Source: Hydrogenovibrio halophilus DSM 15072 | Lineage (GTDB): Bacteria; Pseudomonadota; Gammaproteobacteria; Thiomicrospirales; Thiomicrospiraceae | Length of the DNA: 64,000 nucleotides | Assembly: GCF_000384235.1 (NCBI RefSeq) | Contig: NZ_KB913033.1 | Coordinates: 937,164-1,001,163, forward strand | Reading direction: 5' to 3' | Part shown: in pieces, positions 859-60,913 of the stretch | Layout of the letters: every line of letters begins with the position of its first letter | How positions within the stretch are numbered: the first letter of the stretch is position 1 | Notes under the pieces: model-generated | What the model was told of the DNA's origin: nothing | Seen by the model: the letters and a program-made list of their open reading frames with translations, nothing else | Databases searched by the model: none | Translations under genes and position numbers: made by a program

Positions 859-1446
859 TCACAACTGGCGTTGCTCGGTGGCGACCCGCTTCAACTGATC
901 GGCGTCGTGTGACACCCAGACCGCGCAGGCCGGGCGCTCTTGCAGATAGTCTCTGACCCAGTCTTCCACCGCATGCGTGGTGTCGGGGTCCAGATTTGCC
1001 GTGACCTCGTCCAGCAGTAGCACCTGCGGCTGGTATTGCAACCCTCGAATCAATGCCAGGCGCTGTTTTTCGCCACTGGAAAGCTGCGCCACCGGCTGAT
1101 CCAGCATGGCTTCGGGCAATTGCAAGGCCGAAAAAGCCGTTTTTAACCAGGCCTGGTCAATCTCTTCTTTAAAATGCGCGCGCACCGTGTCTTCCCACCA
1201 GGCGGTTTCGGCGGCAAACAACATCACCTGAGCGCGCCATCGACGGGCCGGGACATCGGCTTGTGCCTCTCCGTTCAGGGTCACCTCACCATCGTGTTCC
1301 AGCAAATCCGCCAGTTTTTTCAGCAGGACCGACTTGCCACCGCCCGAAGCCCCGTAAACGCCCAACACCTCTCCGGCCTCGATGGCAAACGACCAGGCAG
1401 GTTGTTCGGGTCGCGGCGTCAGCGCTTGCACTTCGAACAATGCCAT
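859..1446 (-). CDS. ABC transporter ATP-binding protein, FetA/YbbL-like
   Basis: This is a 195-residue single ATPase domain. Walker A is GASGGGKS (residues 32-39), the signature is LSSGE (122-126), Walker B is LLLDE, and a switch histidine sits in WVSHD. The Q-loop position reads AAET where related ATPases usually have a Gln. The size resembles FetA (YbbL), the ATPase of an iron-export system, but no permease gene is adjacent, so the partner is unknown. The chosen ATG at 1446 is 5 bp after the uvrD stop, suggesting cotranscription with uvrD. An iterated palindrome (1146-1157) lies inside the gene and encodes IDQAWLK. Confidence 0.8.
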   Translation of the reverse strand: MALFEVQALTPRPEQPAWSFAIEAGEVLGVYGASGGGKSVLLKKLADLLEHDGEVTLNGEAQADVPARRWRAQVMLFAAETAWWEDTVRAHFKEEIDQAWLKTAFSALQLPEAMLDQPVAQLSSGEKQRLALIRGLQYQPQVLLLDEVTANLDPDTTHAVEDWVRDYLQERPACAVWVSHDADQLKRVATEQRQL

Positions 1447-8613: not shown

Positions 8614-8625
8614 ACCAGGCCTAGT
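8614..8625. repeat. Iterated palindrome, one mismatch
   Basis: ACCAGGCCTAGT preceded by a T-run lies between the convergent ends of hemE and the EAL/HDOD gene. It differs from the perfect core by one base. Confidence 0.6.
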
Positions 8626-12281: not shown

Positions 12282-14510
12282 TCAGTTCAACAATTGGCGC
12301 ACCGCGTCCAGCAGCTTCTTCTGATTGTCCGGGGTCTGCAACAGCTTATCCAGCGGGGCCTGCCAGACCATCTGATCGGTCGGCCCAGCCACCGTGACCG
12401 GCACGCTCAAGCCTTCCAGCATCGCCAGACCCTTTGGCGGGCGATCATAATTCAGATCAAAACGCATCGACAGTTCACCACGGCCCCAGTCCCAGTTTCC
12501 CGAACCCTGGGCGCTGAAACGCTCCGAAGTCACCGCCAGCGTCTCCCAGTCGACCACCCCGTCCTTGACCGGTGCGGCAAAGTTCAGACTTTCAAACCGG
12601 GTCTCGCCCGGCTGTGCTGACTGTCCCGACAACAAACGGTTCAAATCCATGCCATGATAGGCACCGTCACGAATCTCCCCTTCAAAGCGACCGGCCGCAT
12701 TCTGTTTCAATAACTGCGGATTGACCCCTTTTGACGCCAACTGAAATTGCAGAAACAGGTCGCCGCTCAAACGGCTCTGTTGCCAGGCATCGGTCATCAG
12801 CGGCTGCATGGCCACGTCGCTGATCTGTCCCGAAGTGCTGTAGGCCGGGGTGTCACCGCTCACATCCAGCGTCAGCTCGGTTTCGATCTGACCTTGATAC
12901 AAACGCAGCATAAACGGCTGCAAGTGCCATCTGCCCGATTCCGATTGCACCGAAGCGCGAACCTCATCGTAACTCACGCCCTGATGGCGCAGATGGGTCA
13001 AAGCCACGTCGCCCTCCACCTGCCAGGTGCGCAGGCCTTTTATCGGCAGGCCCACTGGCAACACGCTCCGGGGTTGCGCTTTGGCGTCGGACAGGGCCGC
13101 GTCGGAAACGGACTCGGACGCGGAATCCCCGCTCTCTTTTCCGTTCTCTTCTGTTGTCTGATCCGGTGCGGCGCTGTCCTGCGAACGCGGTTTTAACCAG
13201 GCCTGGTAGTGATCCAGATTCCAGTCCGCCCCCTGCCAGTCAAATCGAATCCGACCGTCCGGGTCACGCCGCATCCAGCCTTCCAGGCTGGCCTGATCCA
13301 GTTTGGCGACCACCTCTTCCAGTGACCATTGCGCCCCCTGCCACTGCCCCTGCAGCGTCAGAGACACATCCGTCAGGGCCTGATCGGATTGAAACCTGGG
13401 CAGATTCAGACCGGTATGACGCGCCCATTGGCGCACATTGACCCGATCCATCGACAAAGAGCCTGCCAGCGGCTTACCGGATTGGAACGGCCAGGGCCCA
13501 CTGCCAGAGGCTTCCATCCGTCCCAGCACACTGAGCAACGCCGCCTGTTTCACATGAAACGTGTCTTTTTCCCGATCCAGTTGCGCCTGAGCGAGCTTGA
13601 AGGTTGCCTGCAAAGGTGGCACCTCGTCGGAATCGATCGGTTGCAAACGCAAGTCGGCCTGCCAGTCGTTCAGGGTCACTGACTGCATCCCGTTTGTCAG
13701 AACCATTTGCCCCCGAGCGTCCAATTGGGTCTGAAACGCCAGACCGCTGCTCGCCAGTTGCCCCGAAAGCATGACCTCGCTGGGACGCTCCGGCATCAGA
13801 TCATAGACCATCAATGAAAGGTGCTTCAATGCCAGGTTGCCCTGTGGAGACTGCCAGGTCAGAACCCCATCGCGCACAATCAATGCTTCCAGGTCCCAGC
13901 TTTCCGAGGTCGCCGTATCCGTAGTCGCCGCATTCGCCTCACCGACCCCCCAATTACCCGGCGTCATCCATAAAGGGGAAGAAGAAGGCGACTGAAACAT
14001 CGACGCCAAGCTCGCTTGAACGGGAGCGAGTCGAGCCACCAGTGGCTGATAATTGCGTTGACCTCCGGCCTTTTCAATCAGGTTCAGGCGCGGGCCGATC
14101 AACTCCACTCCCGAGGCTTTGAGGCGCTGCTCCACAAACAGGGCCCACAATGACAAGGTCACTTCGGCCTGGTCGATTTCCGCCAGCGGCTGCTCAAACC
14201 CGTCGGGACTGGCCACCGTCACCGTTTCCACGCTCAAGGAAAATGGCCAGACGCTGACCCCGACTTCGCCCTCGACCGAAAGCGCATAGCCGGTGCGTTT
14301 TTGGAACTCACTCTCCAGCTGGGGCTTGTATTGATTGAAATCCATAAAATGCACCGCCCCGGCAAAGCCCAGCACGATCACCACCGGCAGCAATACGCCG
14401 ACATAGATCAGGCGGTGCGACCATTTGGCCCAGCCTTTGAGATGACGTTTGGCTCTGGAATCGGTGGTCGCTTGTTCGGTGGTGGTTTCGGTTGGTTCAG
14501 TCATGATCAT
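12282..14510 (-). CDS. AsmA-family inner-membrane protein
   Basis: This protein of about 742 residues has a cytoplasmic N-tail, one membrane anchor (HRLIYVGVLLPVVIVLGFAGAVHF, about 33-56) and a long periplasmic part that begins FMDFNQYKPQLESEFQKRTGY. That start is the AsmA signature. The family forms bridge-like structures thought to move phospholipids to the outer membrane. The C-terminal AsmA_2 region has FEGEIRDGAYHGMDLNRLL and FDLNYDRPPKG. A low-complexity Glu/Ser/Ala stretch lies near residue 445-480. The start overlaps the hemW stop by 4 bp (ATGA); an ATG two codons later is also possible. An iterated palindrome at 13196-13207 encodes YQAWLK. Confidence 0.88.
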   Translation of the reverse strand: MIMTEPTETTTEQATTDSRAKRHLKGWAKWSHRLIYVGVLLPVVIVLGFAGAVHFMDFNQYKPQLESEFQKRTGYALSVEGEVGVSVWPFSLSVETVTVASPDGFEQPLAEIDQAEVTLSLWALFVEQRLKASGVELIGPRLNLIEKAGGQRNYQPLVARLAPVQASLASMFQSPSSSPLWMTPGNWGVGEANAATTDTATSESWDLEALIVRDGVLTWQSPQGNLALKHLSLMVYDLMPERPSEVMLSGQLASSGLAFQTQLDARGQMVLTNGMQSVTLNDWQADLRLQPIDSDEVPPLQATFKLAQAQLDREKDTFHVKQAALLSVLGRMEASGSGPWPFQSGKPLAGSLSMDRVNVRQWARHTGLNLPRFQSDQALTDVSLTLQGQWQGAQWSLEEVVAKLDQASLEGWMRRDPDGRIRFDWQGADWNLDHYQAWLKPRSQDSAAPDQTTEENGKESGDSASESVSDAALSDAKAQPRSVLPVGLPIKGLRTWQVEGDVALTHLRHQGVSYDEVRASVQSESGRWHLQPFMLRLYQGQIETELTLDVSGDTPAYSTSGQISDVAMQPLMTDAWQQSRLSGDLFLQFQLASKGVNPQLLKQNAAGRFEGEIRDGAYHGMDLNRLLSGQSAQPGETRFESLNFAAPVKDGVVDWETLAVTSERFSAQGSGNWDWGRGELSMRFDLNYDRPPKGLAMLEGLSVPVTVAGPTDQMVWQAPLDKLLQTPDNQKKLLDAVRQLLN
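13546..13561. other. Weak parS-like site inside the asmA-like gene
   Basis: TGTTTCACATGAAACG matches the parS consensus TGTTTCACGTGAAACA at 14 of 16 positions, with a central change. It is weaker than the CACGTG-centred copies and may be chance. Confidence 0.3.
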
Positions 14511-15736
14511 TCGTCCAGTAAGGTTTGCAAAAGCGTGTTCAGATAACGGTGCCCTGTTTCGGTCAGGGCGCAATGGGTCAGCGGCTCCGGCAAGGGCGAG
14601 CTGAGCGTCATCCAACCCTTTTCCTGCCAGTCCAGCAACGTCGGCCAGAGTCTGGACTCGGGCAATCCGGTACGTTCGGCAAACAGCCCCAGCGCAAACC
14701 CGGACTGCAGCCGCAATAGATTGAGCAGAAATTCAAACACCCGCTCATCCTCCGCCACCCGAGTCACCCGCCCCGGCAGGGCCGCCGGTTGGCGCCCGAG
14801 CGAAACGGCCTGGACTTCGCGCTGATAACTGCCCGGCGACGCCGGCATCTGAGTGCGCAGAATCTCACCGCTGCCGTCACTCTGTAGCAGGGTCAGTTTG
14901 CCGTGTGCGCCAGCTCCCAGCCCGATGTAATCCCCGAACTGCCAGTAGTTCAGATTGTGGCGACAGCGCTGATCCACAGGCGCATTCTGTCTGGCCCAGG
15001 CAGACACTTCGTAGGCCTCAAACCCGGCGTCCCGCAGCAGCCCGTGCCCCTGCTCCTGAATCAACCAGGCCTGGTCATCGTCAGGCAAAAGCGGCGGCGC
15101 ACGATAGAACGGTGTATTGGGTTCCAGCGTCAACTGGTAATAGGAAATGTGATCCGGTGCCAGCGCCAGTGCCCGCTTGACGTCTTCGGCGGCCTCGTGC
15201 AGGGTCTGCTCAGGCAGGGCAAACATCAGGTCCAGATTGATCCGGTCAAACCCGGCTTCTCTGGCGGCCGCAAACGCGTTTTCCGCCTCTTCGACCGAGT
15301 GGATGCGCCCCAGCGCCTTGAGCAAACGGGGCTGAAAACTCTGTACGCCCAAAGACAGGCGGTTGATGCCCGCCTCGCGAAACCCCGTGAACTTGTCGGT
15401 GTCCATGGCACCGGGATTGGCCTCCAGCGTCACTTCGGTCTGAGGCCCAAACCCGAGCCGCGCGCGCAATTGCGACATCAGCCAGTTGAGCCCCTCCACC
15501 GACATCAGACTGGGGGTGCCACCGCCGAAAAAAATCGTTTCCACAGGGCGTCCCCATATGCGGGGAAGGGTGGCGTCCAGCTGCTGAATCAACGCCTGCA
15601 GATACTCCCGCTCTTGCGCCTCCGCATCGTCGGTCTGGCGCTGATGCGAATTGAAATCGCAATAAGGGCATTTTTGAATGCACCAGGGAAAATGCACATA
15701 CAGACTCAGCGGGATCGGTTGGGTAAAATGGTTCAT
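14507..15736 (-). CDS. hemW: Heme chaperone HemW (radical SAM)
   Basis: This 409-residue protein has the radical-SAM cluster motif CxxxCxxC (CIQKCPYC, residues 19-26), the SAM-binding FFGGGTPSLM near 70 and GVQSFQ near 125. HemW differs from coproporphyrinogen oxidase HemN by starting directly at the radical-SAM domain, as seen here. It delivers heme to respiratory enzymes. The ATG at 15736 begins MNHFTQPIPLSLYVHFPWC; longer versions would run into palindromic element B, which ends 21 bp upstream. An iterated palindrome at 15064-15075 encodes DDQAWLIQ. Confidence 0.92.
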   Translation of the reverse strand: MNHFTQPIPLSLYVHFPWCIQKCPYCDFNSHQRQTDDAEAQEREYLQALIQQLDATLPRIWGRPVETIFFGGGTPSLMSVEGLNWLMSQLRARLGFGPQTEVTLEANPGAMDTDKFTGFREAGINRLSLGVQSFQPRLLKALGRIHSVEEAENAFAAAREAGFDRINLDLMFALPEQTLHEAAEDVKRALALAPDHISYYQLTLEPNTPFYRAPPLLPDDDQAWLIQEQGHGLLRDAGFEAYEVSAWARQNAPVDQRCRHNLNYWQFGDYIGLGAGAHGKLTLLQSDGSGEILRTQMPASPGSYQREVQAVSLGRQPAALPGRVTRVAEDERVFEFLLNLLRLQSGFALGLFAERTGLPESRLWPTLLDWQEKGWMTLSSPLPEPLTHCALTETGHRYLNTLLQTLLDE

Positions 15737-19557: not shown

Positions 19558-19612
19558 TGTCGGACAGAGTTCCGTTTCAGGTCGCCCCTTAACAGGGGTG
19601 CCCTATCGTCCA

Positions 19613-19637
19613 CTCCGGCCAGGTGCCGGAGTTTTTT
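19613..19637 (+). terminator. Rho-independent terminator after the YjfB-like gene
   Basis: CTCCGGC-CAGGT-GCCGGAG followed by six Ts. It precedes the iterated palindrome at 19658, so that palindrome is not needed as this gene's terminator. Confidence 0.9.
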
Positions 19638-19650
19638 GTTTGGGCGATGC

Positions 19651-19676
19651 CTTTTTTACCAGGCCTGGTAAAAAAG
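19651..19676. repeat. Iterated palindrome, extended to 26 bp
   Basis: The 12-bp core ACCAGGCCTGGT (19658-19669) is flanked by CTTTTTT on the left and AAAAAAG on the right, making a perfect 26-bp palindrome. It lies between the convergent YjfB-like gene and hemY. It could act as a bidirectional terminator, but the same core also occurs inside genes. Confidence 0.9.
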
Positions 19677-19692: not shown

Positions 19693-20877
19693 TTACTGAC
19701 TGAGCGGTTTCTGTTCCAGTTGCAGAATCGCTTCCTTGTAGGTCAATGCGGCTTTGGCGTCCAGCCCTTCGGCTTCGTAGCATTGCGCCAGAGTGTGAAA
19801 GGTTTCGATTTCGGGTTGCAGGCGCAGACTCTCCTGCAAAAAGGTGCGTCCCTGGCCCCACAGCTGGCTGCGACAGGCCAGCCGACCCAGTGTCAACAGC
19901 AACACCGGGTTCTCCGGGTGCGCTTTGAGCCATTTTTCGGCGTGTTTCAAACGGGTAAAGGCCGGGCCCAGTTCAATCCGCCCGTACTGATACACCAGCC
20001 GTTCGTCCCAGTGCTTGCGCAACGCTTTTTCCAGAGACTCCGTCAAGCCGGTTTCATCGGCCAGAGCGCGTTTTCGGTCCACGTATTCGGCCACAATCGA
20101 CGGCGTCACCTGTTGACCGCGCGTCAGTGACTGCCAGAGGGCTTCCGCCTGCGAAAGATCCACGGCGGTCTGCAGCTGCCCGGCCAGCAAACGGTTCTGC
20201 AGGGTCAGCAGGTCGTCTTTGCCCAGGGCCTGATACTGCTTCACATCCGGCATCAGCGTTGCCAGCAGGGACCAGAGCTGCTGATCGGCCAACAGCTGGG
20301 CATAGTCGGCCAGCACCGCTTTGTGATCGGGTTCCAGACGGTGCAATTCGGCCAGAATCACCAGCGCTTCTTCGGCATCGGTTTTGGCCAACAGCCGCGC
20401 CTCGACCAGTCCAATAGTGGCCAGTTCGTGCGGATAGGCTTCTTTGGCCTGAGCAATGTGATGCTTCTGGCGATCAATCGCGCCCTGATTGTGTGCCATT
20501 TTGGCCGCAGCCAAATAATGCATCACCCCATTTTCGCTGTATTTGGCGGTGGCAATCAGATGCTTTTCCGCCTGATGCCAGTCGCCGGTTTCCTGTGCCA
20601 TCAACCCTTTGGAAAGCCGGTTTTCGGCTTTGGCATAGCGTTTCATCTGGCGGCGTCGACGCCAGTTGCGAGGCACATGCCAGATCCAGAACGTCAACTG
20701 CACCAGCGCATAGACCAATAAAAACCCGGCGATCAGCGCCGCCAGGGCAAAGGTCAGACTGGTTTCAATGACCCAGTCAAACCACACCAGCGACAGGGTG
20801 CCATTGTCATACAATGCCAGAGTCGCCAGCCCCGTGGCCAGCAGGAACCCCAGCAACCATTTCAGCAAGGTGGCCAT
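19693..20877 (-). CDS. hemY: HemY-like TPR membrane protein
   Basis: This 394-residue protein (the enterobacterial HemY, not protoporphyrinogen oxidase) has two N-terminal membrane segments (about 4-22 and 40-65), the HemY_N pattern LLYDNGTLSLVWFDWVIETSL, and helical TPR repeats in the rest (for example KGLMAQETGDWHQAEKHL). Its function in heme synthesis is uncertain. It follows hemX with no gap, as the last gene of hemC-hemD-hemX-hemY. Confidence 0.93.
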   Translation of the reverse strand: MATLLKWLLGFLLATGLATLALYDNGTLSLVWFDWVIETSLTFALAALIAGFLLVYALVQLTFWIWHVPRNWRRRRQMKRYAKAENRLSKGLMAQETGDWHQAEKHLIATAKYSENGVMHYLAAAKMAHNQGAIDRQKHHIAQAKEAYPHELATIGLVEARLLAKTDAEEALVILAELHRLEPDHKAVLADYAQLLADQQLWSLLATLMPDVKQYQALGKDDLLTLQNRLLAGQLQTAVDLSQAEALWQSLTRGQQVTPSIVAEYVDRKRALADETGLTESLEKALRKHWDERLVYQYGRIELGPAFTRLKHAEKWLKAHPENPVLLLTLGRLACRSQLWGQGRTFLQESLRLQPEIETFHTLAQCYEAEGLDAKAALTYKEAILQLEQKPLSQ

Positions 20878-22353: not shown

Positions 22354-23148
22354 TTACTCGGTCGTCCATTGTTTCAGGGCCTGAATGATCCCGGCCTGAC
22401 TTTGGGGGCGGACAACCCGACAGGGACCTTGCCAACCCTGTTCGCTCAAACCCTGTGCAATGCGTTCGCTGAACACCATCGCGGGCTGTTGAAACAACCA
22501 GGCCTGGTCATTTCTGTGTCCGAAACGGTCCACCAGCCCCTGCAAATGCTCAAATCCCTGCCAGCTGGAAATCAGCACAACCGGGCAGTCACTTTCCGCC
22601 CAGGCCTGCCAGGCGCTTTGCCATTGCTGTCGCGTGTAATCAGGCAGCATGCGTCGATACACCGGCCAAGGCTCAACGTCAGCGCCGGCGGCGCTCAGGC
22701 CGTCAATCAGTGCACGACGCCCGCCTTCGCCTTTGATCAATAACACCGTCTGACCGTGCAAATCCTGCCAGTCTGTTCGTGCCAGCAGGGCTTCGGACAC
22801 AAAATCGTCGTGCGCCAGATCAGCCGTGGGCCAGCCTTGCGCCAGCAACGCCTGTTGCGTGGCTTCGCCGATGGCAAAACACTGTGCGCCCGGCTTCATG
22901 TCCTGCGCCGGATTCAGTGGTCGGCCCGTCAGCGTCTGCCAGGCTTGCGCCAGTTGCTGTACCGCATTGCGGCTGACAAACACCAGTTTGTCGGCCCGGG
23001 CCAGTGTTTCCACGGCCCGGTCGGGCAACCTCAATGCTTCAATCGCAATCACCGGACAATCCACCGAACCCAAACCGGCGGCGGCCAAGGCCTGTGACAG
23101 TGCCTGCGTCTGCCCTTCCGGGCGTGTGTTCAGCAGGGTCGGCGTCAT
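22354..23148 (-). CDS. hemD: Uroporphyrinogen-III synthase
   Basis: This 264-residue two-lobed enzyme closes and inverts the D ring of hydroxymethylbilane. The family is poorly conserved; the recognisable parts are LLNTRPEGQTQAL at the start, LVFVSRNAVQQL near 75, and QTVLLIKGEGGRRALIDGLSAAGADVEPWPVYRR near 150. I chose ATG 23148, 8 bp after the hemC stop; the frame extends upstream inside hemC but does not look coding there. An iterated palindrome (22497-22508) encodes NDQAWLFQQ. Confidence 0.93.
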   Translation of the reverse strand: MTPTLLNTRPEGQTQALSQALAAAGLGSVDCPVIAIEALRLPDRAVETLARADKLVFVSRNAVQQLAQAWQTLTGRPLNPAQDMKPGAQCFAIGEATQQALLAQGWPTADLAHDDFVSEALLARTDWQDLHGQTVLLIKGEGGRRALIDGLSAAGADVEPWPVYRRMLPDYTRQQWQSAWQAWAESDCPVVLISSWQGFEHLQGLVDRFGHRNDQAWLFQQPAMVFSERIAQGLSEQGWQGPCRVVRPQSQAGIIQALKQWTTE

Positions 23149-24812: not shown

Positions 24813-24824
24813 ACCAGGCCTGGT
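24813..24824. repeat. Iterated palindrome
   Basis: Perfect ACCAGGCCTGGT with a T-run on its left, in the gap between the lipoprotein gene and argH. No other terminator is visible for the lipoprotein gene. Confidence 0.9.
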
Positions 24825-26392: not shown

Positions 26393-26404
26393 ACCAGGCC
26401 TGGT
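26393..26404. repeat. Iterated palindrome
   Basis: Perfect ACCAGGCCTGGT preceded by a T-run, between the convergent ends of argH and the GGDEF gene. Confidence 0.9.
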
Positions 26405-29075: not shown

Positions 29076-29088
29076 ACGCTCCGTTTCG

Positions 29089-29113
29089 GGCCTGGTTTTT
29101 TACCAGGCCTGGT
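29089..29113. repeat. Iterated palindrome with an extra half copy
   Basis: The perfect core ACCAGGCCTGGT is at 29102-29113. A half copy GGCCTGGT just upstream (29090-29097) can pair with ACCAGGCC of the core across a T-run, making a hairpin that could also terminate transcription. Confidence 0.85.
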
Positions 29114-31308: not shown

Positions 31309-32852
31309 CGCCGCGTACGCCGTAGCGGCACCCGTTTTGACCAGGCCTGGCAGGTTTTGATCAAAGCATCGCACGCTACCGGCGCATCTTCTGGATGAGC
31401 ATAACGACACTGATTGAAACAACTGACCCAGGCCCGTGCCTCGGGCGAGGCCCCGAACCGGGCCTCAAAGGCCTGAAGCCACTGTTTGGGACTGGGTGCT
31501 TCGCGTTCGTCCCAGCCGGGCAATTGGCTTTTTGACCAGGCCTGCACCGCCTGCCACACCGCCACTTGTGGATGCAGGGCCTGACCGGCACGGCGCAAAC
31601 GCCAGCGTAACTGCGCTCTGGCCCAGATCCCGTTCAGCGCCTGCCACAACCATCCCAGTGCCCACAATGCCAGCAACAGGCTGACTGCATACAAGGTCCA
31701 CACCAGCCAGCCGGGCAATACCCAGACCGTTTGCGGCGACAGAACCGACGTTTGCAACTTGCCGGTCTGGGGATTCAACGCGTTCACCGTCACCTCGGGC
31801 AGTCGTACCGGACCAAACCCCTTTATACGCAACGGCTGAGTCATCTCCGCCTCGCTGATCAGTCCTTTTTGGGTCCATGTCTGACTGACACGGGTTTTGG
31901 CCGACAACCATTCAATCGCCGAATGGCCTTGCATCTGCCTGCTCAAATCGGGCAGACGATTTTGCGCCAGATCTCGGCCAGTCAAGCGCAAGGTCCAGTG
32001 ATACAAAGCGCCGTCGGTCACCAACCACGGCAACGACTCGGCTTGCAATTGCAACCGACCCACTGGCATTTGCCAGGGCAAAAAACCGGGCAGCGCTTGA
32101 ATGTTCAATGCCACCGGCGGTGCCGCAAATACCCAGTTCCGGGCGCTTTCATTGCGCACGACCAGCAAAGGGCCCGCCAGAACAGCACGCTCACCAGACT
32201 GGTTCGCTTGGTCCGGCTGCTTCGTCTCAAGTGGCGAACGCATTTCACGCCCCAATCGCAGTCGGGTCAGTGAATTGGCTTGCGTCACCACGCTGGGCAG
32301 ATCGGCGGCGTCCTGCGGCAACACCCAGCCTTTTTCCCGCGGCGTCTGTGAAGACAGGGCCGCTTCCGGCGGACGCAGTTGCGCGGTCCAGCCGTCATCG
32401 GCGGCGTCCATTTCGACCTGCCAGCTGATCACCTGACCGGCATAGACCGTTTCCTCCGGCGGCGTCCAATCCACCCCGATGGCAGGGTTTTCGGCCACCC
32501 ACAGCGGCTGTTCCGGCATTGGAATTGTCGCATCCTTGGCTTGCGGTAATTGAATCTCGCCACTGCGATAAGGGATCAGGCGCACACTCAGGCCCGTGCC
32601 GCGTTGCCGAATCCCCTCAATATAAAAGTGTGCCTGAATCGGCGCCCAATCCATTTTTGACCAGGCCTGGTTAAACGCTTCCGTTTGCACGTCCGGCCCG
32701 CTCAACACCCAGTTGACGCCTTCGCCCATCTGAATTTCGCGCTGGGAAAATTCACTCTGCACCAGCAGGGCCGACGCCATAGGCGCAAACAGACTCAGCA
32801 TCACACCCAGCGACAAACCCAGCCAGCCATCACGCCAAAACGCTTTTACCAT
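31305..32852 (-). CDS. BatD-like membrane protein, operon 1
   Basis: This 515-residue protein has a signal peptide (MVKAFWRDGWLGLSLGVMLSLFAPMASA), a long periplasmic beta-rich region (BatD-type, about 30-385), one membrane segment (VLPGWLVWTLYAVSLLLALWALGWLW, about 385-410) and a cytoplasmic helical tail. BatD belongs to the Bat (Bacteroides aerotolerance) group found with MoxR ATPases, VWA proteins and DUF58. It is the last gene of operon 1. It contains one perfect iterated palindrome (32660-32671) and two near copies (31340, 31535), giving three QAWSK peptides. Confidence 0.8.
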   Translation of the reverse strand: MVKAFWRDGWLGLSLGVMLSLFAPMASALLVQSEFSQREIQMGEGVNWVLSGPDVQTEAFNQAWSKMDWAPIQAHFYIEGIRQRGTGLSVRLIPYRSGEIQLPQAKDATIPMPEQPLWVAENPAIGVDWTPPEETVYAGQVISWQVEMDAADDGWTAQLRPPEAALSSQTPREKGWVLPQDAADLPSVVTQANSLTRLRLGREMRSPLETKQPDQANQSGERAVLAGPLLVVRNESARNWVFAAPPVALNIQALPGFLPWQMPVGRLQLQAESLPWLVTDGALYHWTLRLTGRDLAQNRLPDLSRQMQGHSAIEWLSAKTRVSQTWTQKGLISEAEMTQPLRIKGFGPVRLPEVTVNALNPQTGKLQTSVLSPQTVWVLPGWLVWTLYAVSLLLALWALGWLWQALNGIWARAQLRWRLRRAGQALHPQVAVWQAVQAWSKSQLPGWDEREAPSPKQWLQAFEARFGASPEARAWVSCFNQCRYAHPEDAPVACDALIKTCQAWSKRVPLRRTRR

Positions 32853-34810
32853 GGCACCACTCCCGGCAGATCATGCCCTTCTTCCTGTTCGGCCTGAAAG
32901 CCTTCTTCGCGCTCAAACAGGCGCTTTAACAGGCCCGCCTGATCGTCCTGAACCGACTCCAGGGTCTGGTTCATCACCGCAATGCGCCGTCGCTTGGCCT
33001 GATCGGCCAGCACCGCCTGCCCCGAATCGCTGGTGGTGAGCGACAGGGCGCGGTTGTCCAGCCGATAATCGGTGGCCTCACCGGTCAAGGCCGGATCGGT
33101 TTTCTTTTCGCCATCGGGGATGCCCTGATCCAGCTCGTCCTCCATGCCGCTGGGGCCGCCACCGCCGGCGCTCATGCCACCATAAAAAGCGTTTTCATCC
33201 TGCTGACGATTCGGGTCCTGATCTCGGCGCTCGCCCTGTTCCGTCTCTGTGGTTTCAGGCGAACGCAACTCGGTCTCCGAATCCAGTCGTGCCTGCGCTA
33301 CGGCCAGATTGTGTTCGGTGGCCTCGCGGTCGGGGGCATAACGCAGGCTGTGCTGGTAAGCCTCAATTGCCTCCACCAACAAATCGGCTTGCAGATAACT
33401 GTTGCCCAGATTGAACAAAGCCTGGCCGCGCTCGGGATCGGTTTTGGCCTGCATCAACGCCTCGCGAAAACTGGCCACCGCCATCGTCAGATTGGGCAGG
33501 TAATAGGCCGCGACCCCTGCGCCCATCTGGGCGTCATAGCCATCCAATCCCTGATAAAGTTTGAGCGCAGTGTCATAATCTTTGTTTTGCAGGGCCGCAA
33601 ACGCCTGATGCGGATTCTCAGAGGCCGGTTCCGCCTGAACCTGAGTCGGTTGCATCAGCGTGGTCAGTCCCAAAGCGGCACTCAAAGCCATCAGAGCCAC
33701 AGACGCAACTTCAGACTTCGCCCGTCGGCGCACCGACAAAGGGTACATTGCCGCCAGCATGGTCACAAACGCCAGCCAGACAAACGGCAGAGAATGGTCT
33801 TCCCATTTGGGATCGGTGGTGGGCAGGGGCCGTTTCGACCCGGGCTGGGTCAAGGTGGTGACCATGTCGGCCAGCGTACCGGCCTGTCCGTCGCCACGCA
33901 GATAGGTGCCATCAAACTGCTCGGCCAGTGTCTGCAAGGCCCCTTCCTGCAAACGGGTGCGCGCCGGTTGGCCCAGATGCAGCAAACGGCCGCCCATTTC
34001 GGAATCATCCGGGATAAAGGTGTCGCTGCTGCGCCCCATGCCCGTAATCAGCAAAGACGGCTCACCGGGCAAAGCCTGCGGCAATTCGAACGCTTTCTGT
34101 TTTTCTTCTTCGTTTGATTTCAACGGCGGTTGCGCCGGACCATCGGTCAATACCCACAAAGCCCGGGCCTCACCCGCCACCTGATCGAGATGGCGCGCCC
34201 CAAACACCATGGCCTGCCCCAGATGGGAGCCATGCGTCGGCAACATACCGGTTTGCATCAATCCCAGATAATGCCGGGTCCAATCGCGATCAAAGCTGAG
34301 CGGGCTCACCAGATGCGGTTGCGCCGCAAACACCACCAGGCCCACCCGGTCATCGGCTTTCAAATACGGCAGCACCGACTCAACCAGATTGCGCGCCGCA
34401 TGGAATCGGTCCGGGCGCACATCTTCGGCCTGCATCGAGCGCGACACATCCACCGCGATCAGAATGTCCACGCCTTCGCGGTCCGATTGCTGCGGTGCCT
34501 GCACCAGCGTGCGTGGCCCGGCCAGAGCAATCACCAGCGCCACCCAGGCGATGGCCAGTCCCATGCCCGGATGGAACAGGGCTTTGCGAACGCGTTGAAA
34601 CCAGGCCTGGTCAGTTTTAAGGGCATCCGCCTCGGCCGAATCGGGATTGACTTGAATCCAGGGCAAAAGCGCGGCATCGGCATAGCCCTGCCAATGGCGA
34701 CGCTGACGCCAAAACAGAAACAGGCTCACAACTAGCGGCACCGCCAAAAACCATAGGGTCTCGGGCTGACGCCATTGCCAATCCATCAGGCTCAACCAGG
34801 CGTCATTCAT
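32846..34810 (-). CDS. VWA-TPR protein (BatB/BatC-like fusion), operon 1
   Basis: This 654-residue protein has an N-terminal double membrane segment (about 15-35 and 75-95), a VWA domain with a complete MIDAS start DVSRSM near 128, a further membrane segment near 355, and TPR repeats (about 420-530: ALFNLGNSYLQADLLVEAIEAYQHSLRYAPDREATEHNLAVAQARLD). The tail is acidic and Gln/Gly-rich. It overlaps its neighbours on both sides (ATGA with the VWA gene upstream), indicating coupled translation. MoxR ATPases act with VWA proteins as chaperone-like complexes. An iterated palindrome (34600-34611) encodes TDQAWFQ. Confidence 0.88.
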   Translation of the reverse strand: MNDAWLSLMDWQWRQPETLWFLAVPLVVSLFLFWRQRRHWQGYADAALLPWIQVNPDSAEADALKTDQAWFQRVRKALFHPGMGLAIAWVALVIALAGPRTLVQAPQQSDREGVDILIAVDVSRSMQAEDVRPDRFHAARNLVESVLPYLKADDRVGLVVFAAQPHLVSPLSFDRDWTRHYLGLMQTGMLPTHGSHLGQAMVFGARHLDQVAGEARALWVLTDGPAQPPLKSNEEEKQKAFELPQALPGEPSLLITGMGRSSDTFIPDDSEMGGRLLHLGQPARTRLQEGALQTLAEQFDGTYLRGDGQAGTLADMVTTLTQPGSKRPLPTTDPKWEDHSLPFVWLAFVTMLAAMYPLSVRRRAKSEVASVALMALSAALGLTTLMQPTQVQAEPASENPHQAFAALQNKDYDTALKLYQGLDGYDAQMGAGVAAYYLPNLTMAVASFREALMQAKTDPERGQALFNLGNSYLQADLLVEAIEAYQHSLRYAPDREATEHNLAVAQARLDSETELRSPETTETEQGERRDQDPNRQQDENAFYGGMSAGGGGPSGMEDELDQGIPDGEKKTDPALTGEATDYRLDNRALSLTTSDSGQAVLADQAKRRRIAVMNQTLESVQDDQAGLLKRLFEREEGFQAEQEEGHDLPGVVPW

Positions 34811-35985: not shown

Positions 35986-36257
35986 CTCTGCCTCCGTTTA
36001 AACAGGCTTTGGCGCAATGTCTGGCCGGTTTTCTGCCAGGCATGATGGACGGTGTGACGCGCTTTCAATTGGGCGGCCTGATCCACACGTCGCATCAACT
36101 GAGACAGTTCTGACAAAAGGGTTTCACGTGAAACCGGTTGCGTGGAAAAGCACAAGGTCTGCAAGTGGTTGCGGTGGGTCGTGTCCTTCTGGGCACCGGC
36201 CACCGGCTTTTGAGTCTGGATTGAAATTTGCCAGGGGCGCGGACTGAAACAGGGCAT
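35982..36257 (-). pseudogene. Out-of-frame C-terminal part of the operon 1 DUF4381 gene
   Basis: This frame carries a helical, natural-looking peptide (ETLLSELSQLMRRVDQAAQLKARHTVHHAWQKTGQTLRQSLFKRR). It runs to a stop that overlaps the next start (ATGA), exactly as expected of the true end of the DUF4381 gene. It is one frame away from the N-terminal part at 36124-36558. A one-base change somewhere around 36180-36245, perhaps in the run of four Cs read on the minus strand, would join the two. Either the gene is frameshifted or the sequence has an error here. Confidence 0.55.
36120..36135. other. parS-like site (ParB binding)
   Basis: GGTTTCACGTGAAACC is a perfect 16-bp palindrome that matches the parS consensus TGTTTCACGTGAAACA at 14 of 16 positions, including the full central 14-mer. 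It lies in the frameshifted DUF4381 gene. Confidence 0.7.
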
Positions 36258-36558: not shown

Positions 36559-37589
36559 GGGCGGCCTCCGATCACGGTGGCGTTCATCCCTGCCACAGAC
36601 TGGCTCATGGCATTCAGGTCGTCGCAGGTGTCCAGCGCCATCCAGGCCAGTCCGGCCTGACGCAAATGGGCCTGCACCTCGGCAAAATAGTCTTTTGACC
36701 AGGCCTGGTAGGCCTCACGCAGAGACTCGGTGACCGCATGCACCGACCCATCACGCCCGCGCAATCTCAGACCGGCCACTTTTGGCAACCGGCGTTCGCT
36801 CGGGTCCTGCACCCAGATGGCCTTGATCATCAGCTTCTGCTGCAAGGTCATCAACAGGGTTTCGGTGGCCGCATCCAGATCGGAAAAATCGCTGATCAGA
36901 ATCAAGCGGTCCCCCGGCTGTGCCCGCGCCTGCAAGTCAATCAATTCGTCATACAGCCGCGGACTCCGCCGCACCTGCTCGTCGTTCATGGGCGGACACG
37001 GCTGGCTGGCAAACTGCATCAGCGGTTCAAAACTGGCACTGCCCTCCCAGGTCGGGGAAACGCGCACCGATTCCGACAACACCACCGCCGAAACCGGAAT
37101 CGCATCGCTCTGGGCCTGCCAGGCAAAATACCCGGCGGCACGCAATGCCTGGGTGGCTTTGAGATGACAGCGCGTCCCAAAGCGCATGGGCTGGCGCAAA
37201 TCAATCAAGAGTGTCCAGCTTTCCTGGCGTTCTTCCTGATAAAGTTGGGTATAGGCGTCACCAGTGCGCGCCATCAGCCGCCAGTTGAGTCGGCGCACTT
37301 CGTCCCCCGGCTGATACAGGCGGCTTTCTTCGTATTCCATGCCTGCGCCCAGATAACGGCTCGCCTGCTCGCCCTGCTTGAAAGCGGCACTGACTTTGGG
37401 ATTGGGCACCTGCGTTTGCAACAGCCGACCCAGGGCCCGCCCCAGATGGGTAATGTCATCTCCGCTCAACAAAGGCCAGACCGGATCCACCTGCGGTGCC
37501 TGAGACAGCTTTGCTCTGCCTGTCAGCGCGGACAAAGCCGAAGACCCGACCTGGTCAAAAAACGGTTTCAGCGAACGCCAGAGCCTCAT
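36555..37589 (-). CDS. DUF58 protein, operon 1
   Basis: This 344-residue protein has the DUF58 hallmark GMEYEESRLYQPGDEVRRLNWRLMARTGDAYTQLYQEERQ near 84-122, followed by a VWA-like fold (TLLIDLRQPMRFG, LILISDFSD). DUF58 proteins always travel with MoxR ATPases and are thought to present substrates or partners to them. It begins 3 bp after the moxR stop. An iterated palindrome at 36698-36709 encodes YQAWSKDYF. Confidence 0.9.
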   Translation of the reverse strand: MRLWRSLKPFFDQVGSSALSALTGRAKLSQAPQVDPVWPLLSGDDITHLGRALGRLLQTQVPNPKVSAAFKQGEQASRYLGAGMEYEESRLYQPGDEVRRLNWRLMARTGDAYTQLYQEERQESWTLLIDLRQPMRFGTRCHLKATQALRAAGYFAWQAQSDAIPVSAVVLSESVRVSPTWEGSASFEPLMQFASQPCPPMNDEQVRRSPRLYDELIDLQARAQPGDRLILISDFSDLDAATETLLMTLQQKLMIKAIWVQDPSERRLPKVAGLRLRGRDGSVHAVTESLREAYQAWSKDYFAEVQAHLRQAGLAWMALDTCDDLNAMSQSVAGMNATVIGGRP

Positions 37590-37592
37590 CGC

Positions 37593-38567
37593 TTAATCAA
37601 CGTCCACCGGTACCGGTACCGCCTCGACAATGGCATCAATCACCGCTTGCGGTGTCCAGTTCTGGGCGCGTCCGGCAAAACTCACCCGAATCCGGTGGCG
37701 CAACACATCGCCCACCACCGCAATCGCATCGTCCGGGGTCACGTAATCGCGATCGGCCAGCCAGGCATAAGCACTGGCGGCGTGCAGCAACGACAGACTC
37801 GCCCGCGGCGAGGCCCCGATTTCCAGCACACCGGCCCAATCCGGGTTGTAATCGCCCAGACGACGGGTGGCCCCCGTCAGCGCCACCATGTATTGCTCCA
37901 CCGGCTCGGACACATACTGCTCCGCGATTTCATGACGCGCTGCCAACACCTTGTCCGGGGTCAGAAACGCCTCGAATTTTTCCTTGTCTTCGCCAAAGTG
38001 ATGCGAACGGTCGCGGCGCAGAATTTCCAACTCTTCGTCTTCGGTCGGGTAATCCAGCGCCACATGCAACATAAACCGGTCCAGCTGGGCTTCGGGCAGC
38101 GGATAAGTGCCGCTCTGCTCCAGCGGGTTCTGCGTGGCCATCACAATAAACAAATCCGGCAAGGCGCGGGTCTGTCCACCTGCGGTGACCTGTTTTTCCG
38201 CCATCGCTTCCAGCAAAGCCGATTGCACCTTGGGTGGTGCCCGGTTGATTTCGTCGGCCAGCACGATCTCATGAAAAATCGGCCCCGGCACAAAGCGCAG
38301 CGTATGGGTGTCGGTGTCCAGAATTTCGGAGCCCACCACATCGCCCGGCATCAGATCCGGGGTAAACTGAATCCGCTGAAACCGCGCCTTCACCGCCGTG
38401 GACAAGGTTTTCACCGCCGTGGTTTTTGCCAGGCCTGGTGGGCCTTCCAGCAAAATATGGCCGCCTGTGAGCAGGCCGATCATCATTTTATCCAGCAGGG
38501 CTTCCTGGCCGACAATGACCTTCTGCAAATGGGCTTTGAGCGTTTTAAACGCCTGTTGGGTCGACAT
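37593..38567 (-). CDS. MoxR-family AAA+ ATPase, operon 1
   Basis: This 324-residue AAA+ protein has Walker A EGPPGLAKT near 40-48, FTPDLMPGDVVGSEI, Walker B VLADEINRAPPKVQSALLEAM near 107, sensor-1 VMATQNP near 145, and the C-terminal lid with SPRASLSLLHAA. MoxR ATPases remodel or help mature protein complexes together with the VWA partners encoded downstream. It is the first gene of operon 1. A near copy of the iterated palindrome (38428-38439) lies over the Walker A codons PPGLAK. Confidence 0.95.
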   Translation of the reverse strand: MSTQQAFKTLKAHLQKVIVGQEALLDKMMIGLLTGGHILLEGPPGLAKTTAVKTLSTAVKARFQRIQFTPDLMPGDVVGSEILDTDTHTLRFVPGPIFHEIVLADEINRAPPKVQSALLEAMAEKQVTAGGQTRALPDLFIVMATQNPLEQSGTYPLPEAQLDRFMLHVALDYPTEDEELEILRRDRSHHFGEDKEKFEAFLTPDKVLAARHEIAEQYVSEPVEQYMVALTGATRRLGDYNPDWAGVLEIGASPRASLSLLHAASAYAWLADRDYVTPDDAIAVVGDVLRHRIRVSFAGRAQNWTPQAVIDAIVEAVPVPVDVD

Positions 38568-39616: not shown

Positions 39617-40279
39617 ATGTCACAGAGTCCCATGAAAATTCATTTGTTTGAACAACTGGCTCAGGTCAGCAAAGCCATCGGTCACGCCAACCGGCTGATG
39701 ATCCTGGACGTGCTGATGCAGGCCGAGTGCGATGTGGAAACCCTGCACCAGAAAGTGGGGTTGAGCCTGGCCAATGTTTCCAAACACCTGCAAATTTTGA
39801 AGCAGGCAGGCCTGGTCAAACACCAGCGCCATGGCCAGCGGATGCTGTATTCCCTCAGTGACCAGCGAGTCCATAACCTGATTGCCGCTCTGCGCGACGT
39901 GGCCGAATCGCAACTGGCCAGCATGCAGGCCCTGCTGCAGGAACACCTCAAACCCAACACCCCATTGGCCCCGATTTCACTGGACCAGTTGCAAAAACTG
40001 TCACAGCCTTTCAAGCTGCTGGATGTGCGACCACCGGACGAATTTGCCGCTGGGCATATTCCCTCGGCCATCAATGTGCCGATTGACCAGCTGTCTGACA
40101 ACCTGCCCGATGTCCAGGACGACACCACCATTGTGGTCTATTGTCGTGGTCCCTACTGCCTCTGGTCGCAAGAGGCGGTCGAAGCCCTGCAATCCAAGGG
40201 CCTCAAAGCCAAACGCCTGGCGGACGGCTACCCCGAATGGCAGGCCCGAAAAGGGGCACATCATGACGAACCCCTCTGA
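39617..40279 (+). CDS. ArsR-type regulator fused to a rhodanese domain
   Basis: This 220-residue protein has an ArsR winged helix (about 10-105: AIGHANRLMILDVLMQAECDVETLHQKVGLSLANVSKHLQILKQAGLV) joined to a rhodanese domain (about 125-215: FKLLDVRPPDEFAAGHIPSAINVP, active-site loop VVYCRGPYCLWS with one Cys at its tip). Such fusions are thought to sense or transfer sulfane sulfur or polysulfide. The DNA-binding half lacks an obvious metal site. A near copy of the iterated palindrome is at 39805-39816. A tiny gene overlaps its end. Confidence 0.88.
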   Translation: MSQSPMKIHLFEQLAQVSKAIGHANRLMILDVLMQAECDVETLHQKVGLSLANVSKHLQILKQAGLVKHQRHGQRMLYSLSDQRVHNLIAALRDVAESQLASMQALLQEHLKPNTPLAPISLDQLQKLSQPFKLLDVRPPDEFAAGHIPSAINVPIDQLSDNLPDVQDDTTIVVYCRGPYCLWSQEAVEALQSKGLKAKRLADGYPEWQARKGAHHDEPL

Positions 40280-40478: not shown

Positions 40479-41621
40479 ATGGGCATTTTTGGCAATAAGG
40501 CCGCATTGAGCCGATTGGAAAAAGAAAACAGACACTTGAAGCAGCAGTTGCATCAGGCGCAGTCGGATCAGGAAGAAGCCATTGAGCGCCTGAAAGCTGA
40601 AAACACCGAATTGAAACAAAGCCTGGATCAGTCACCAGCGGACGACTCGGCCGACAAACTGAGCCACCTGCAGGACCTGACCGTGATCAACCACCAGAGC
40701 TTTGACCGTTTCCGGAATCAGATTGCCGGGTTCAGCGGTCAGTTGCGTGACAAACGCCTGGAAATCGTCCAGGGTGGCAATGTGTCCCACGAAGCCTCAC
40801 AGAACATGAACCAGGTTTCTGACGGCATCGCCAGACTGTCGGCCGAAGCCAGCGAAACCTCGCAATCGGTCACCGAGCTGAAAAACCGGGCCGACGAAAT
40901 CGGCACCATCATCAGCATGATCGAAGACATTTCCGAGCAGACCAATCTGCTGGCCCTCAATGCTGCGATCGAGGCGGCCCGAGCGGGTGAAGCCGGACGC
41001 GGCTTTGCGGTGGTGGCCGACGAAGTGCGCGGCCTGTCTCAGCGCACGGCCAAAGCCACGGCCGAAATCGCCAGTCTGGTTCAGACCAACCAGAAACAGA
41101 TGACCGGCAGCGAAGAGCGCATGCGCAGTGTCTCGGAAAACGCCCTGGCGCTCAAATCGGAAACCGATCAGGCCTCCGACGTGATCACCCATCTGATCAA
41201 CATGCAGGGCGATCTCAGCACAAGCTTGGCTTCCAGTGCATTGCGTGGCTTTACCATGACTGCCATGGCCGACCATCTGATTTTCAAAAACGACATTTAT
41301 CAGGCCCTGCTGGACGTCAAGGCGCTGTCGCCCGATGAATTGAAAGACTCGCGCAACTGCCGTCTGGGCCAATGGTATTATCAGGGCGAAGGGGCGGATT
41401 GCTACAGCAAACTGGACGGGTATGCCGATCTGGAAGCGCCGCATCAGGAAGTGCACGAGCTGGCAAAACGCATTCTGGAACTCAAAGCCATGGGCGATTA
41501 TGACCAGGCCTGGTCAAAAGTGCGTCAACTGGAAACGGCCTCGGATCAGGTGGCCGCGGCTCTGAACCGCATTGCCGACAGTGGCGAAGCCAATGCCGCC
41601 ATTCTCTGCGCCGCAGAATAA
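40479..41621 (+). CDS. Soluble chemoreceptor with CZB zinc-binding domain
   Basis: This 380-residue methyl-accepting protein has no membrane segment. An N-terminal coiled coil (about 10-50) precedes the signalling domain with the hairpin tip [45 protein letters not shown] (about 147-190). A C-terminal CZB domain (about 260-370) carries the His/Cys ligands in [22 protein letters not shown] and HQEVHEL. CZB domains bind zinc and are reported to sense oxidants such as hypochlorite in other bacteria. AAGGAG fixes the start at 40479. A sigma-54-type promoter precedes it. An iterated palindrome (41503-41514) encodes DQAWSK. Confidence 0.93.
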
Positions 41622-43026: not shown

Positions 43027-43932
43027 ATGAACATCATGCGTATATCTCAATGGTCTGAATTCTGGCGAAGACTGCAACGGCAACCGGCCTGGCTGCGCTG
43101 GGGCTTTTTCTGGCTACCGACGGCCACCGGCTTTGTGCTGCTGCTGGCGTCCTTGACCTATTTGTACGAGGTCAAGGCCGCGCGCCCGGCCCTGGCCTTT
43201 TCCGGCGTGCCCAAAATCGACCAGGCCTGGTCAAAAATGGCACATGTTCTGCGCAATGAAGCTTTTTTGGTCGGCTACAGCGAAACACTCAAAAACCCGC
43301 TCTGGGTGGGCTATTGGGTCACGGACCAGACCCAACGTTTTGGCAAGCGTCCGCGCTTCGAAGCCGACTGGCGCACCCTCAGTTATGTCCACTACCACGA
43401 TTACACCGGATCGAACTACAACCGCGGTCATCTGGCTCCCAATTATCTGATCGGTTCCCGCTACGGGCGTCACGCCCAGAAGGAAACCTTTCTGATGAGC
43501 AACATCACCCCGCAGAAACCGCGCTTCAACCAGAAAATCTGGCAGCGGCTGGAAGAAGTCAGCGCCGACAAATTCACGCAACACTTTCAACGCTTTTACG
43601 TGGTCACTGGCCCGGTTTTTGACGACGAACCCAAAACCCTTCGCAACCGTGATGGCGACACGGACATCGCCATTCCCAATGCCTTTTACAAAATCTTTAT
43701 CCGCCCAACGCAAGACGGTACACCCTCGGCCCTGGCGTTCCTGATGCCCCAGGACGCACCGCCTAGAGCCAGTCTGAGCGATTACGTCACCAGCATTGAT
43801 GCGATTGAAGCGCGCACCCAAATCGATTTTTTTCATGCCTTGCCCGATGAGATCGAAGACCGGATTGAGGCCAGTTCCGATCCCAAAGCCTGGCATTTGC
43901 ACCGCTATGCCAATCTGCCGCCCAGGTACTGA
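43027..43932 (+). CDS. Membrane-anchored DNA/RNA non-specific endonuclease
   Basis: This 301-residue protein has one N-terminal membrane segment (LRWGFFWLPTATGFVLLLASLTYLY, about 24-48) and an extracytoplasmic nuclease domain of the NUC1/EndoG beta-beta-alpha-metal family. The active motif reads NRGHLAPN near 136-143 (family DRGHxxP, first residue Asp to Asn), followed by FLMSNITPQKPRFNQKIW with the metal-binding Asn. It may digest DNA in the periplasm for nutrition, or during uptake. An iterated palindrome (43220-43231) encodes IDQAWSKM. The following mltC starts 3 bp after its stop. Confidence 0.88.
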   Translation: MNIMRISQWSEFWRRLQRQPAWLRWGFFWLPTATGFVLLLASLTYLYEVKAARPALAFSGVPKIDQAWSKMAHVLRNEAFLVGYSETLKNPLWVGYWVTDQTQRFGKRPRFEADWRTLSYVHYHDYTGSNYNRGHLAPNYLIGSRYGRHAQKETFLMSNITPQKPRFNQKIWQRLEEVSADKFTQHFQRFYVVTGPVFDDEPKTLRNRDGDTDIAIPNAFYKIFIRPTQDGTPSALAFLMPQDAPPRASLSDYVTSIDAIEARTQIDFFHALPDEIEDRIEASSDPKAWHLHRYANLPPRY

Positions 43933-46246: not shown

Positions 46247-47237
46247 TTTCTGGCAGGATTACCACACTTTCTGGCCCGCTCTGGAAGACGCCAATCTGCC
46301 GCACTGGCAGGAGGCGCTCAAACCAAGGCTGGAGATCGCACTGGACCCACAAGCCAATGGCAATCTGCCCAGATGGTTGCCGGCACTGGAAAGCATCCAT
46401 CGGTTGCCCGGATCGGAACACGCGGTTCTGGACCAGCCGGTGGTGCAGGCCTGGTCAAAAACGCCCTTTGTGGACCCAGACGAACTGACCCAGACCCTGA
46501 AAGCGCTGATGCCCTGGCGCAAAGGCCCGTTTGAAATCGAAGGCGTCTACATCGACACCGAATGGCGCTCGGACCTCAAATGGGCGCGCGTCGCCCCACA
46601 TCTGAGCGACCTGACCAACCGACGGGTGCTCGACATCGGTTGCGGCAGTGGCTACCACCTGTGGCGCATGCTGGGTGCCGGAGCGCGCTTTGCTGTGGGC
46701 GTGGACCCGGGACTGCAATTCATGGCCCAGTTTCTGGCAATGAAACATTTTCTGGGCCCCGATCTGCCTGCCTGGTTCTTGCCCCTGACGCTGGAACAGC
46801 TGCCTTTGAGGCAACAATGTCAGCAGTTTGATACCGTGTTTTCCATGGGCGTGCTCTACCACCGTCGTTCCCCCATCGATCATCTGATCGACCTCAAGCG
46901 CCATCTCCGCCCCGGCGGTGAACTGGTGCTGGAAACCCTGGTGGTCCCGGACGATTACGGCCAGCTTCTGGTTCCCAAGGACCGCTATGCGCAAATGAAC
47001 AATGTCTGGTTTCTGCCTTCGGTGAGCGAGCTGCAACGCTGGCTGGAAAAGTGCGGGTATCGCAATGTGCGCTGTGTGGACGTGGACCAGACCGATACCA
47101 ACGAACAACGCAGCACCGACTGGATGCAATGGAAATCCCTGGCCGATTTTCTCAACCCGGACAACCCCGATCAGACGGTCGAAGGCTACCCCGCCCCCAG
47201 ACGCGCGGTACTGCTGGCCAACACCCCCAGAGGCTGA
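46239..47237 (+). CDS. cmoB: tRNA U34 carboxymethyltransferase
   Basis: This 332-residue enzyme transfers the carboxymethyl group of carboxy-SAM to 5-hydroxyuridine 34 in tRNA. It shows WRKGPFEIEGVYIDTEWRSDLKW near 90, SAM site VLDIGCGSGYHLWRM near 130, GVDPGLQFMAQF and a C-terminal RSTDWMQWKSLADFL. The start codon is GTG, with AAAGG upstream; it overlaps a parS-like sequence. It forms a two-gene unit with cmoA. A near copy of the iterated palindrome (46444-46455) encodes QAWSK. Confidence 0.95.
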   Translation: MKHFWQDYHTFWPALEDANLPHWQEALKPRLEIALDPQANGNLPRWLPALESIHRLPGSEHAVLDQPVVQAWSKTPFVDPDELTQTLKALMPWRKGPFEIEGVYIDTEWRSDLKWARVAPHLSDLTNRRVLDIGCGSGYHLWRMLGAGARFAVGVDPGLQFMAQFLAMKHFLGPDLPAWFLPLTLEQLPLRQQCQQFDTVFSMGVLYHRRSPIDHLIDLKRHLRPGGELVLETLVVPDDYGQLLVPKDRYAQMNNVWFLPSVSELQRWLEKCGYRNVRCVDVDQTDTNEQRSTDWMQWKSLADFLNPDNPDQTVEGYPAPRRAVLLANTPRG

Positions 47238-60901: not shown

Positions 60902-60913
60902 ACCAGGCCTGGT
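60902..60913. repeat. Iterated palindrome
   Basis: Perfect ACCAGGCCTGGT preceded by a T-run, between prlC and the fadL-like gene. A GCCCG-CTGCA-CGGGC hairpin lies at 60931-60945 beside it; together they may end prlC transcription. Confidence 0.9.

Follow-up and report, generated by a model that had tools for sequence, protein, structure and literature searches.

What is a perfect 26-bp palindrome doing in the gap between two convergent genes of the marine sulfur oxidiser Hydrogenovibrio halophilus? A sequence-only reading of this DNA had reported such an element, lying beside a separate standard terminator, as the best of six intergenic palindromes, and had likened them to the uptake sequences of Neisseria and Haemophilus. 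The DNA uptake sequence (DUS) occurs as inverted pairs at gene ends. We argue here that the palindromes are probably members of a genome-wide sequence of the uptake type serving natural transformation, a minority of which double as transcription terminators.

The focal palindrome and its neighbourhood

As claimed, the focal site reads CTTTTTTACCAGGCCTGGTAAAAAAG, and an independent intrinsic terminator, a stem followed by TTTTTGTTTG, stands next to it (Table 1). The flanking genes are predicted and convergent, the right-hand one being hemY-like. The focal copy folds at -12.7 kcal/mol and has no U tail on either strand. Its T-run precedes the stem and its A-run follows it, which is the reverse of an intrinsic terminator, where a G+C stem comes before a T run on the transcript; the focal copy is probably not a terminator of this kind. 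Of 94 transcript-oriented 3'-end copies, nine have arms of at least 13, so the length of 26 bp is nothing special. Arms of this size come mostly from A/T flanks to either side of the 12-bp core, and the 26-bp arm is a by-product. The excess of flank symmetry is small and confined to intergenic copies.

In the window, by which we mean the whole 64-kb stretch analysed, there are 21 exact copies of CCAGGCCTGG against 0.13 expected from shuffles. All six intergenic copies listed earlier lie where they were placed, the one at 8614 as an inexact copy (ACCAGGCCTAGT, one mismatch), and three of the six are in convergent gaps, in keeping with the reading that they often are. Measured to the closest gene edge, the five exact ones are about 23-75 bp away, and each is less than 100 bp from a gene 3' end, which bears out their described nearness to gene ends. 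The extra half site noted at 29102 does form a hairpin (GGGCCTGGT-TTTTT-ACCAGGCC...), folding at -20.1 kcal/mol (z -4.9).

Table 1. Palindrome copies and associated features in the window.
Feature	Position	Strand	Remarks
Focal perfect 26-bp palindrome CTTTTTTACCAGGCCTGGTAAAAAAG	19651..19676	.	core ACCAGGCCTGGT at 19658-19669; gap of convergent genes
Standard intrinsic terminator, separate from palindrome	19612..19642	+	stem 19612-19632, then TTTTTGTTTG
hemY-like TPR protein gene	19693..20877	-	TIGR00540 237 bits; 3' end adjoins focal palindrome
Intergenic core copy	24814..24823	.	tandem gap, ~30 bp past gene end
Intergenic core copy	26394..26403	.	convergent gap
Intergenic core copy with extra half site	29087..29112	.	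GGGCCTGGTTTTTTACCAGGCCTGG; strong hairpin
Intergenic core copy	60903..60912	.	tandem gap
Degenerate intergenic copy	8614..8625	.	ACCAGGCCTAGT; convergent gap, one mismatch
Coding core copy	1147..1156	.	kept in WB1
Coding core copy	13197..13206	.	
Coding core copy	15065..15074	.	kept in WB1
Coding core copy	22498..22507	.	kept in WB1
Coding core copy	31341..31350	.	
Coding core copy	32661..32670	.	
Coding core copy	34601..34610	.	
Coding core copy	36699..36708	.	
Coding core copy	38429..38438	.	
Coding core copy	41504..41513	.	
Coding core copy	43221..43230	.	
Coding core copy	49143..49152	.	
Core copy in final codons of a gene	54499..54508	.	
Coding core copy	56931..56940	.	
Coding core copy	58808..58817	.	
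Coding core copy	62468..62477	.	
Half site	31537..31544	.	TTTTTGACCAGGCCTGCA; A/T tail on intact half only
Half site	39807..39814	.	GGCAGGCCTGGTCAAACA; A/T tail on intact half only
Half site	46446..46453	.	GTGCAGGCCTGGTCAAAAAC; A/T tail on intact half only

The motif is built from an asymmetric unit

Across the 2,356,686-bp (2.36-Mb) genome CCAGGCCTGG occurs 599 times and its reversed-letter control once, a genome-wide over-representation of a short exact motif such as uptake sequences display. The density is about 0.25 per kb, and the spacing between sites is a little more regular than in a random series (CV 0.73). The consensus of 125 sites from 464 kb is ACCAGGCCTGGT extended on both sides by one free base, A/G and about four A/T. 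In the same 464 kb nearly every single-base variant of CCAGGCCTGG has 0-3 copies as against the 125 exact ones, the outermost position alone reaching 12. The core, which contains GGCC and two CCWGG sites, is 12 bp long, and similarity between copies stops about 8 bp outside it.

We sampled 824 kb (35% of the genome) as stretches for half-site and placement counts, taking as intact any half with GT after the octamer. Among the CAGGCCTG sites both halves were intact in 185, a single half in 57 and neither in 43. The A/T tail of the 57 one-half sites averaged 3.72 of 5 positions beside the intact half and 2.46 beside the broken one; complete sites averaged 4.02 and sites lacking an intact half 2.26, the background being about 2.3. 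The broken sites thus keep the tail on their intact half only, and the unit is therefore asymmetric and reads CAGGCCTGGT-N-R-WWWW; two such units, opposed and overlapping so as to share the core, usually make up the palindrome. The quality of the left and right tails is uncorrelated (rho 0.03).

Placement relative to genes

Genes in the 824 kb (765 in all, with approximate starts) were called by a codon-score gene finder made for this analysis. Exact cores numbered 125 in coding sequence against 192 expected, 27 against 3.2 in convergent gaps, 52 against 13.0 in tandem gaps and 8 against 6.5 in divergent gaps, which corresponds to densities per 10 kb of 1.7, 21.8, 10.5 and 3.2, respectively. 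As many as 91% of the intergenic copies are at most 100 bp from a gene edge, compared with 68% of random intergenic bases, and most gene-end copies lie 5-60 bp past the stop codon. The comparison of intergenic and coding densities that had been proposed thus bore out the bias, and the placement independent of gene ends that had been named as its refutation was not seen.

The same counts bear on the suggestion that these elements chiefly stop transcription. In its favour, the copies sit at gene 3' ends, with convergent gaps 6.8 times as dense as divergent ones, intergenic copies have longer arms (p = 1.6e-6), and some are textbook terminators, for example AAAAACCACCAGGCCTGGTGGTTTTT at L014 18620 and the copy at the hemY end of the relative G062. 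On the other hand, 58% of the exact copies are within genes, and a T-run of at least 5 follows the stem on the transcript in only 13% of gene-end copies (3% of coding ones), while an A-run of at least 5 does so in 28%. A main role as terminator or mRNA 3'-end element is unsupported because most copies are genic, T-runs are few and the runs of the focal copy, which has its own terminator alongside, are reversed; we regard it as very improbable. Our best reading is that a minority of gene-end copies double as intrinsic terminators, which parallels the Pasteurellaceae and Neisseriaceae, in some of which as many as 22% and 37% of the terminators hold the uptake signal sequence (USS) or DUS (PMC13020248).

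Coding copies fall mostly in frame 1 (64 of 96 in the 824 kb), where they encode (D/H/N/Y)QAW(S/L) peptides; one reading frame dominates, and the tag has therefore shaped protein sequences. Depletion from foreign DNA did not show clearly when genes were classed by codon score and by GC: low-GC genes have fewer copies, yet the motif-poorest 20-kb stretch of those sampled (L007, 770-790 kb of the genome) is the ribosomal protein/EF-Tu/RNA polymerase operon, from which strong coding constraint appears to keep the tag out.

Conservation and dialects among relatives

A scan for related proteins gave Thiomicrospira sp. WB1 (HemY 82% identical) and Hydrogenovibrio sp. JE_KL2 as close relatives. When syntenic WB1 sequence was aligned, five of seven exact cores were identical as against 13% of 10-column windows (~7e-4, binomial sum); at the focal site TTTTTTACCAGGCCTGGTAAAAAA here corresponds to TTTTTGACCAGGCCTGGTCAAAAA at the orthologous position in WB1. 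Thiomicrospiraceae genomes mostly hold either hundreds of copies of the tag or almost none, a few being intermediate.

Counting k-mers de novo in 20-100 kb of each genome, together with listing the sites, showed that the tag exists in dialects. CAGGCCTGGT is found in most carriers, and CAGGCCTGST or CAGGCCTGNT (the latter in G022) in others. In the same frame stand CAGGCCTGNT and the dialects CCCAACCTGGYAGATTTT in G001 and G011, CCCAGCCTGGYAGATTTT in G004, ACCCGGCCTGTTGAGTTT in G030 and ACCGGCCGGT in G032; CCCARCCTGGYAGATTTT and CCCAACCTGGCAGATTTT are dialect forms as well, and other relatives have none. The palindrome ACCGGCCGGT occurs about once per 2.7 kb in G032 (L029, L101, L102), where it replaces ACCAGGCCTGGT. 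No comparable motif was noticed by k-mer counts on 20-100 kb each of G013, G019, G059, G064, G065, G069, G071 and G072. Genome-wide, CCARCCTGGYAGA was counted 358 times in G001, 315 in G004 and 314 in G011 and 0-1 times in eight other genomes; on the two strands it divides as 192/166, 176/139 and 174/140, without strong strand bias, as in uptake sequences. At three loci of G001 and G011 two copies of the non-palindromic dialect stand inverted a short way apart, and the A/T tail of the CCARCCTGGYAGATTTT dialect is one-sided, as it is in the half sites. In a HemY tree the genomes with non-palindromic forms make one clade (100/100) inside the genus, and all states of dialect and absence require 5 changes against 9.5 when shuffled. 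The dialects thus track phylogeny, as those of uptake sequences do.

Competence genes and the search for a receptor

ComEC was matched in 55 of 59 family genomes, ComEA in 52 and DprA in all 18 checked, each including our own, and prepilin-like proteins in 20 of 20 checked. ComEC, ComEA and DprA make up an uptake machinery, which is unspecific, also occurring in motif-free relatives. Most of these (G013, G019, G059, G064, G065) retain ComEC, and the presence of the machinery therefore does not account for that of the motif. Loss of ComEC as the cause of motif loss was rejected, as it fits only G071, which is without both.

ComP_DUS (PF16732), the Neisseriaceae DUS receptor, was above cut-off in none of the 59 family genomes, and GspH/FimT (PF12019) had no match in our genome and matched only in G013, G019 and G072, all motif-free. 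Both were discarded as receptors, neither being found in the genome that carries the motif. A cluster of four small pseudopilins, which reads like the type II secretion genes GspG-H-I-J, was noticed in G005, G009, G002, G016, G067, G022, G030, G032, G034 and others; our own genome (G000), G001, G004, G011 and G027 gave no matches to it.

Comparison with known uptake sequences

The tag, which most relatives carry in versions of their own species, has the look of the 'self' labels that guide DNA uptake in Haemophilus and Neisseria, and would be a family of them not recognised before. The extended Pasteurellaceae signals are AAAGTGCGGTCAATTTT in Hin-USS and AACAAGCGGTCAAATTT in Apl-USS (PMC12616744), and the Pasteurellaceae signal GCGGTCAATTTT has in common with the Thiomicrospiraceae tag the layout GGT-N-R-A/T tract. 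When aligned on GGT, the tags CCTGGTCAAAA and CCTGGTAGATTTT show GGT, one base, a purine and an A/T tract, as USS does. As with USS, the copies run to hundreds or more, have a strict core ended by GGT, form clade dialects in gammaproteobacteria, and are both genic and intergenic with some co-opted into terminators (PMC12616744, PMC13020248). The A/T-rich segment 3' of the USS core has its counterpart here at positions +3 to +7 past the core. The core itself is not that of USS (AAGTGCGGT or ACAAGCGGT), being CAGGCCTGGT or its dialects; it forms a 12-bp palindrome, with CCTGGT in place of GCGGT, and usually bears the tail on both sides, whereas known uptake sequences are not palindromic (PMC1939737). 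Copies are also fewer (599, where 'thousands' are quoted for DUS and USS genomes; PMC3630211), and the family is a different one.

Neisserial DUS dialects have a common CTG core, and some genomes are without any dialect (PMC3630211). The tag resembles them in having phylogenetically coherent dialects that share an inner core, which is CTG in DUS and CCTG in most dialects of the tag, excepting ACCGGCCGGT. It differs in that DUS is a single unbroken run of about 10-13 bases and no palindrome, and that its receptor, ComP, has no above-cut-off homologue here. Thus the earlier comparison with Neisseria and Haemophilus is well supported by copy number, the strict core and the asymmetric A/T-tailed unit, as in Haemophilus USS, and likewise by species dialects, gene-end bias and the inverted hairpin pairs of the non-palindromic dialect. 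Layout and dialects are the strongest reasons for reading the tag as an uptake sequence, by way of resemblance and not as proof of homology.

Alternative explanations

A homodimeric protein that organises the chromosome or regulates genes, like MatP at matS or ParB at parS, might instead bind the palindrome at its several hundred sites. The dyad-symmetric core, the symmetric A/T flanks of most copies, the slightly more even spacing and the conservation of sites between two species are all consistent with such a protein. We nevertheless hold it unlikely: a related clade has substituted clearly non-palindromic forms in the same register, the 57 one-tailed half sites are kept, left and right tails vary independently, and several lineages show independent loss or absence. 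Flank symmetry was tried as evidence for a dimer and rejected, given the uncorrelated tails and a slight excess that only intergenic copies have. A HIP1-like palindrome of the cyanobacterial kind, which a DNA methyltransferase would make or keep together with mismatch repair, would also be highly iterated and, like the alternate HIPs that Elhai described as replacing HIP1 in some cyanobacteria, would be swapped for other palindromes, such as ACCGGCCGGT, in some relatives (PMC4390886); the GGCC and CCWGG sites of the core would suit it as well. HIPs, however, are denser (1-2 per kb) and come with cognate methyltransferases, whereas a search for cytosine-5 methyltransferases by PF00145 found none in our genome (G000) or most carriers (G005, G006, G010, G014, G016, G020, G023, G026, G027 and G031 among them), and a link between such enzymes and the motif was accordingly dropped. 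The A/T tail, the non-palindromic dialects and the strong gene-end bias differ as well, and this origin appears improbable. Least credible of all is a mobile or REP-type repeat spreading by transposition, which the many copies, some intergenic, might suggest; similarity ends just outside the core, copies lie inside reading frames as tolerated peptides such as xQAWx, and the dialect switch is genome-wide.

We return to the uptake-type sequence. On that explanation incoming DNA that carries the unit would be bound by a putative surface receptor of the type IV pilus/competence machinery, so that DNA of the same or close species would enter preferentially via ComEA, ComEC and DprA. Uptake bias together with recombination would hold the core to its exact sequence and raise the number of copies, which would build up where they are least harmful, past the ends of genes and at protein positions that tolerate them; the dialects of relatives presumably diverged together with the receptor, and some gene-end copies, a minority, would also act as intrinsic terminators. 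The literature found describes uptake sequences in two families only, mostly of host-associated bacteria, and in the literature searched, most subscription papers lying outside it, there was no report of natural transformation and none of such sequences in these genera. We lean, by a little, towards the Thiomicrospiraceae holding a third family-level system, independent of those of Neisseriaceae and Pasteurellaceae: its palindromic sequence would be readable from both strands, its dialects would number four or more, the tag would have been lost several times, and the receptor would not be ComP. If so, uptake sequences would reach a third family, whose members are free-living chemolithoautotrophs oxidising sulfur and whose dialects shift within one genus. 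Such a system would offer a natural comparison for locating the receptor by co-variation and a test of whether receptor bias alone gives rise to such sequences, and could possibly aid in transforming genetically intractable organisms.

Other repeats in the genome

Perfect palindromes resembling parS were noticed at 36122-36133 and 58522-58533 of the window (GTTTCACGTGAAAC) and at L140 12131, which suggests a replication origin region at around 0.97-1.08 Mb of the contig. At L013 11103-13397 (about 1.501 Mb of the genome) GCGGCTTAGAA recurs every ~60 bp in an array that is probably a CRISPR.
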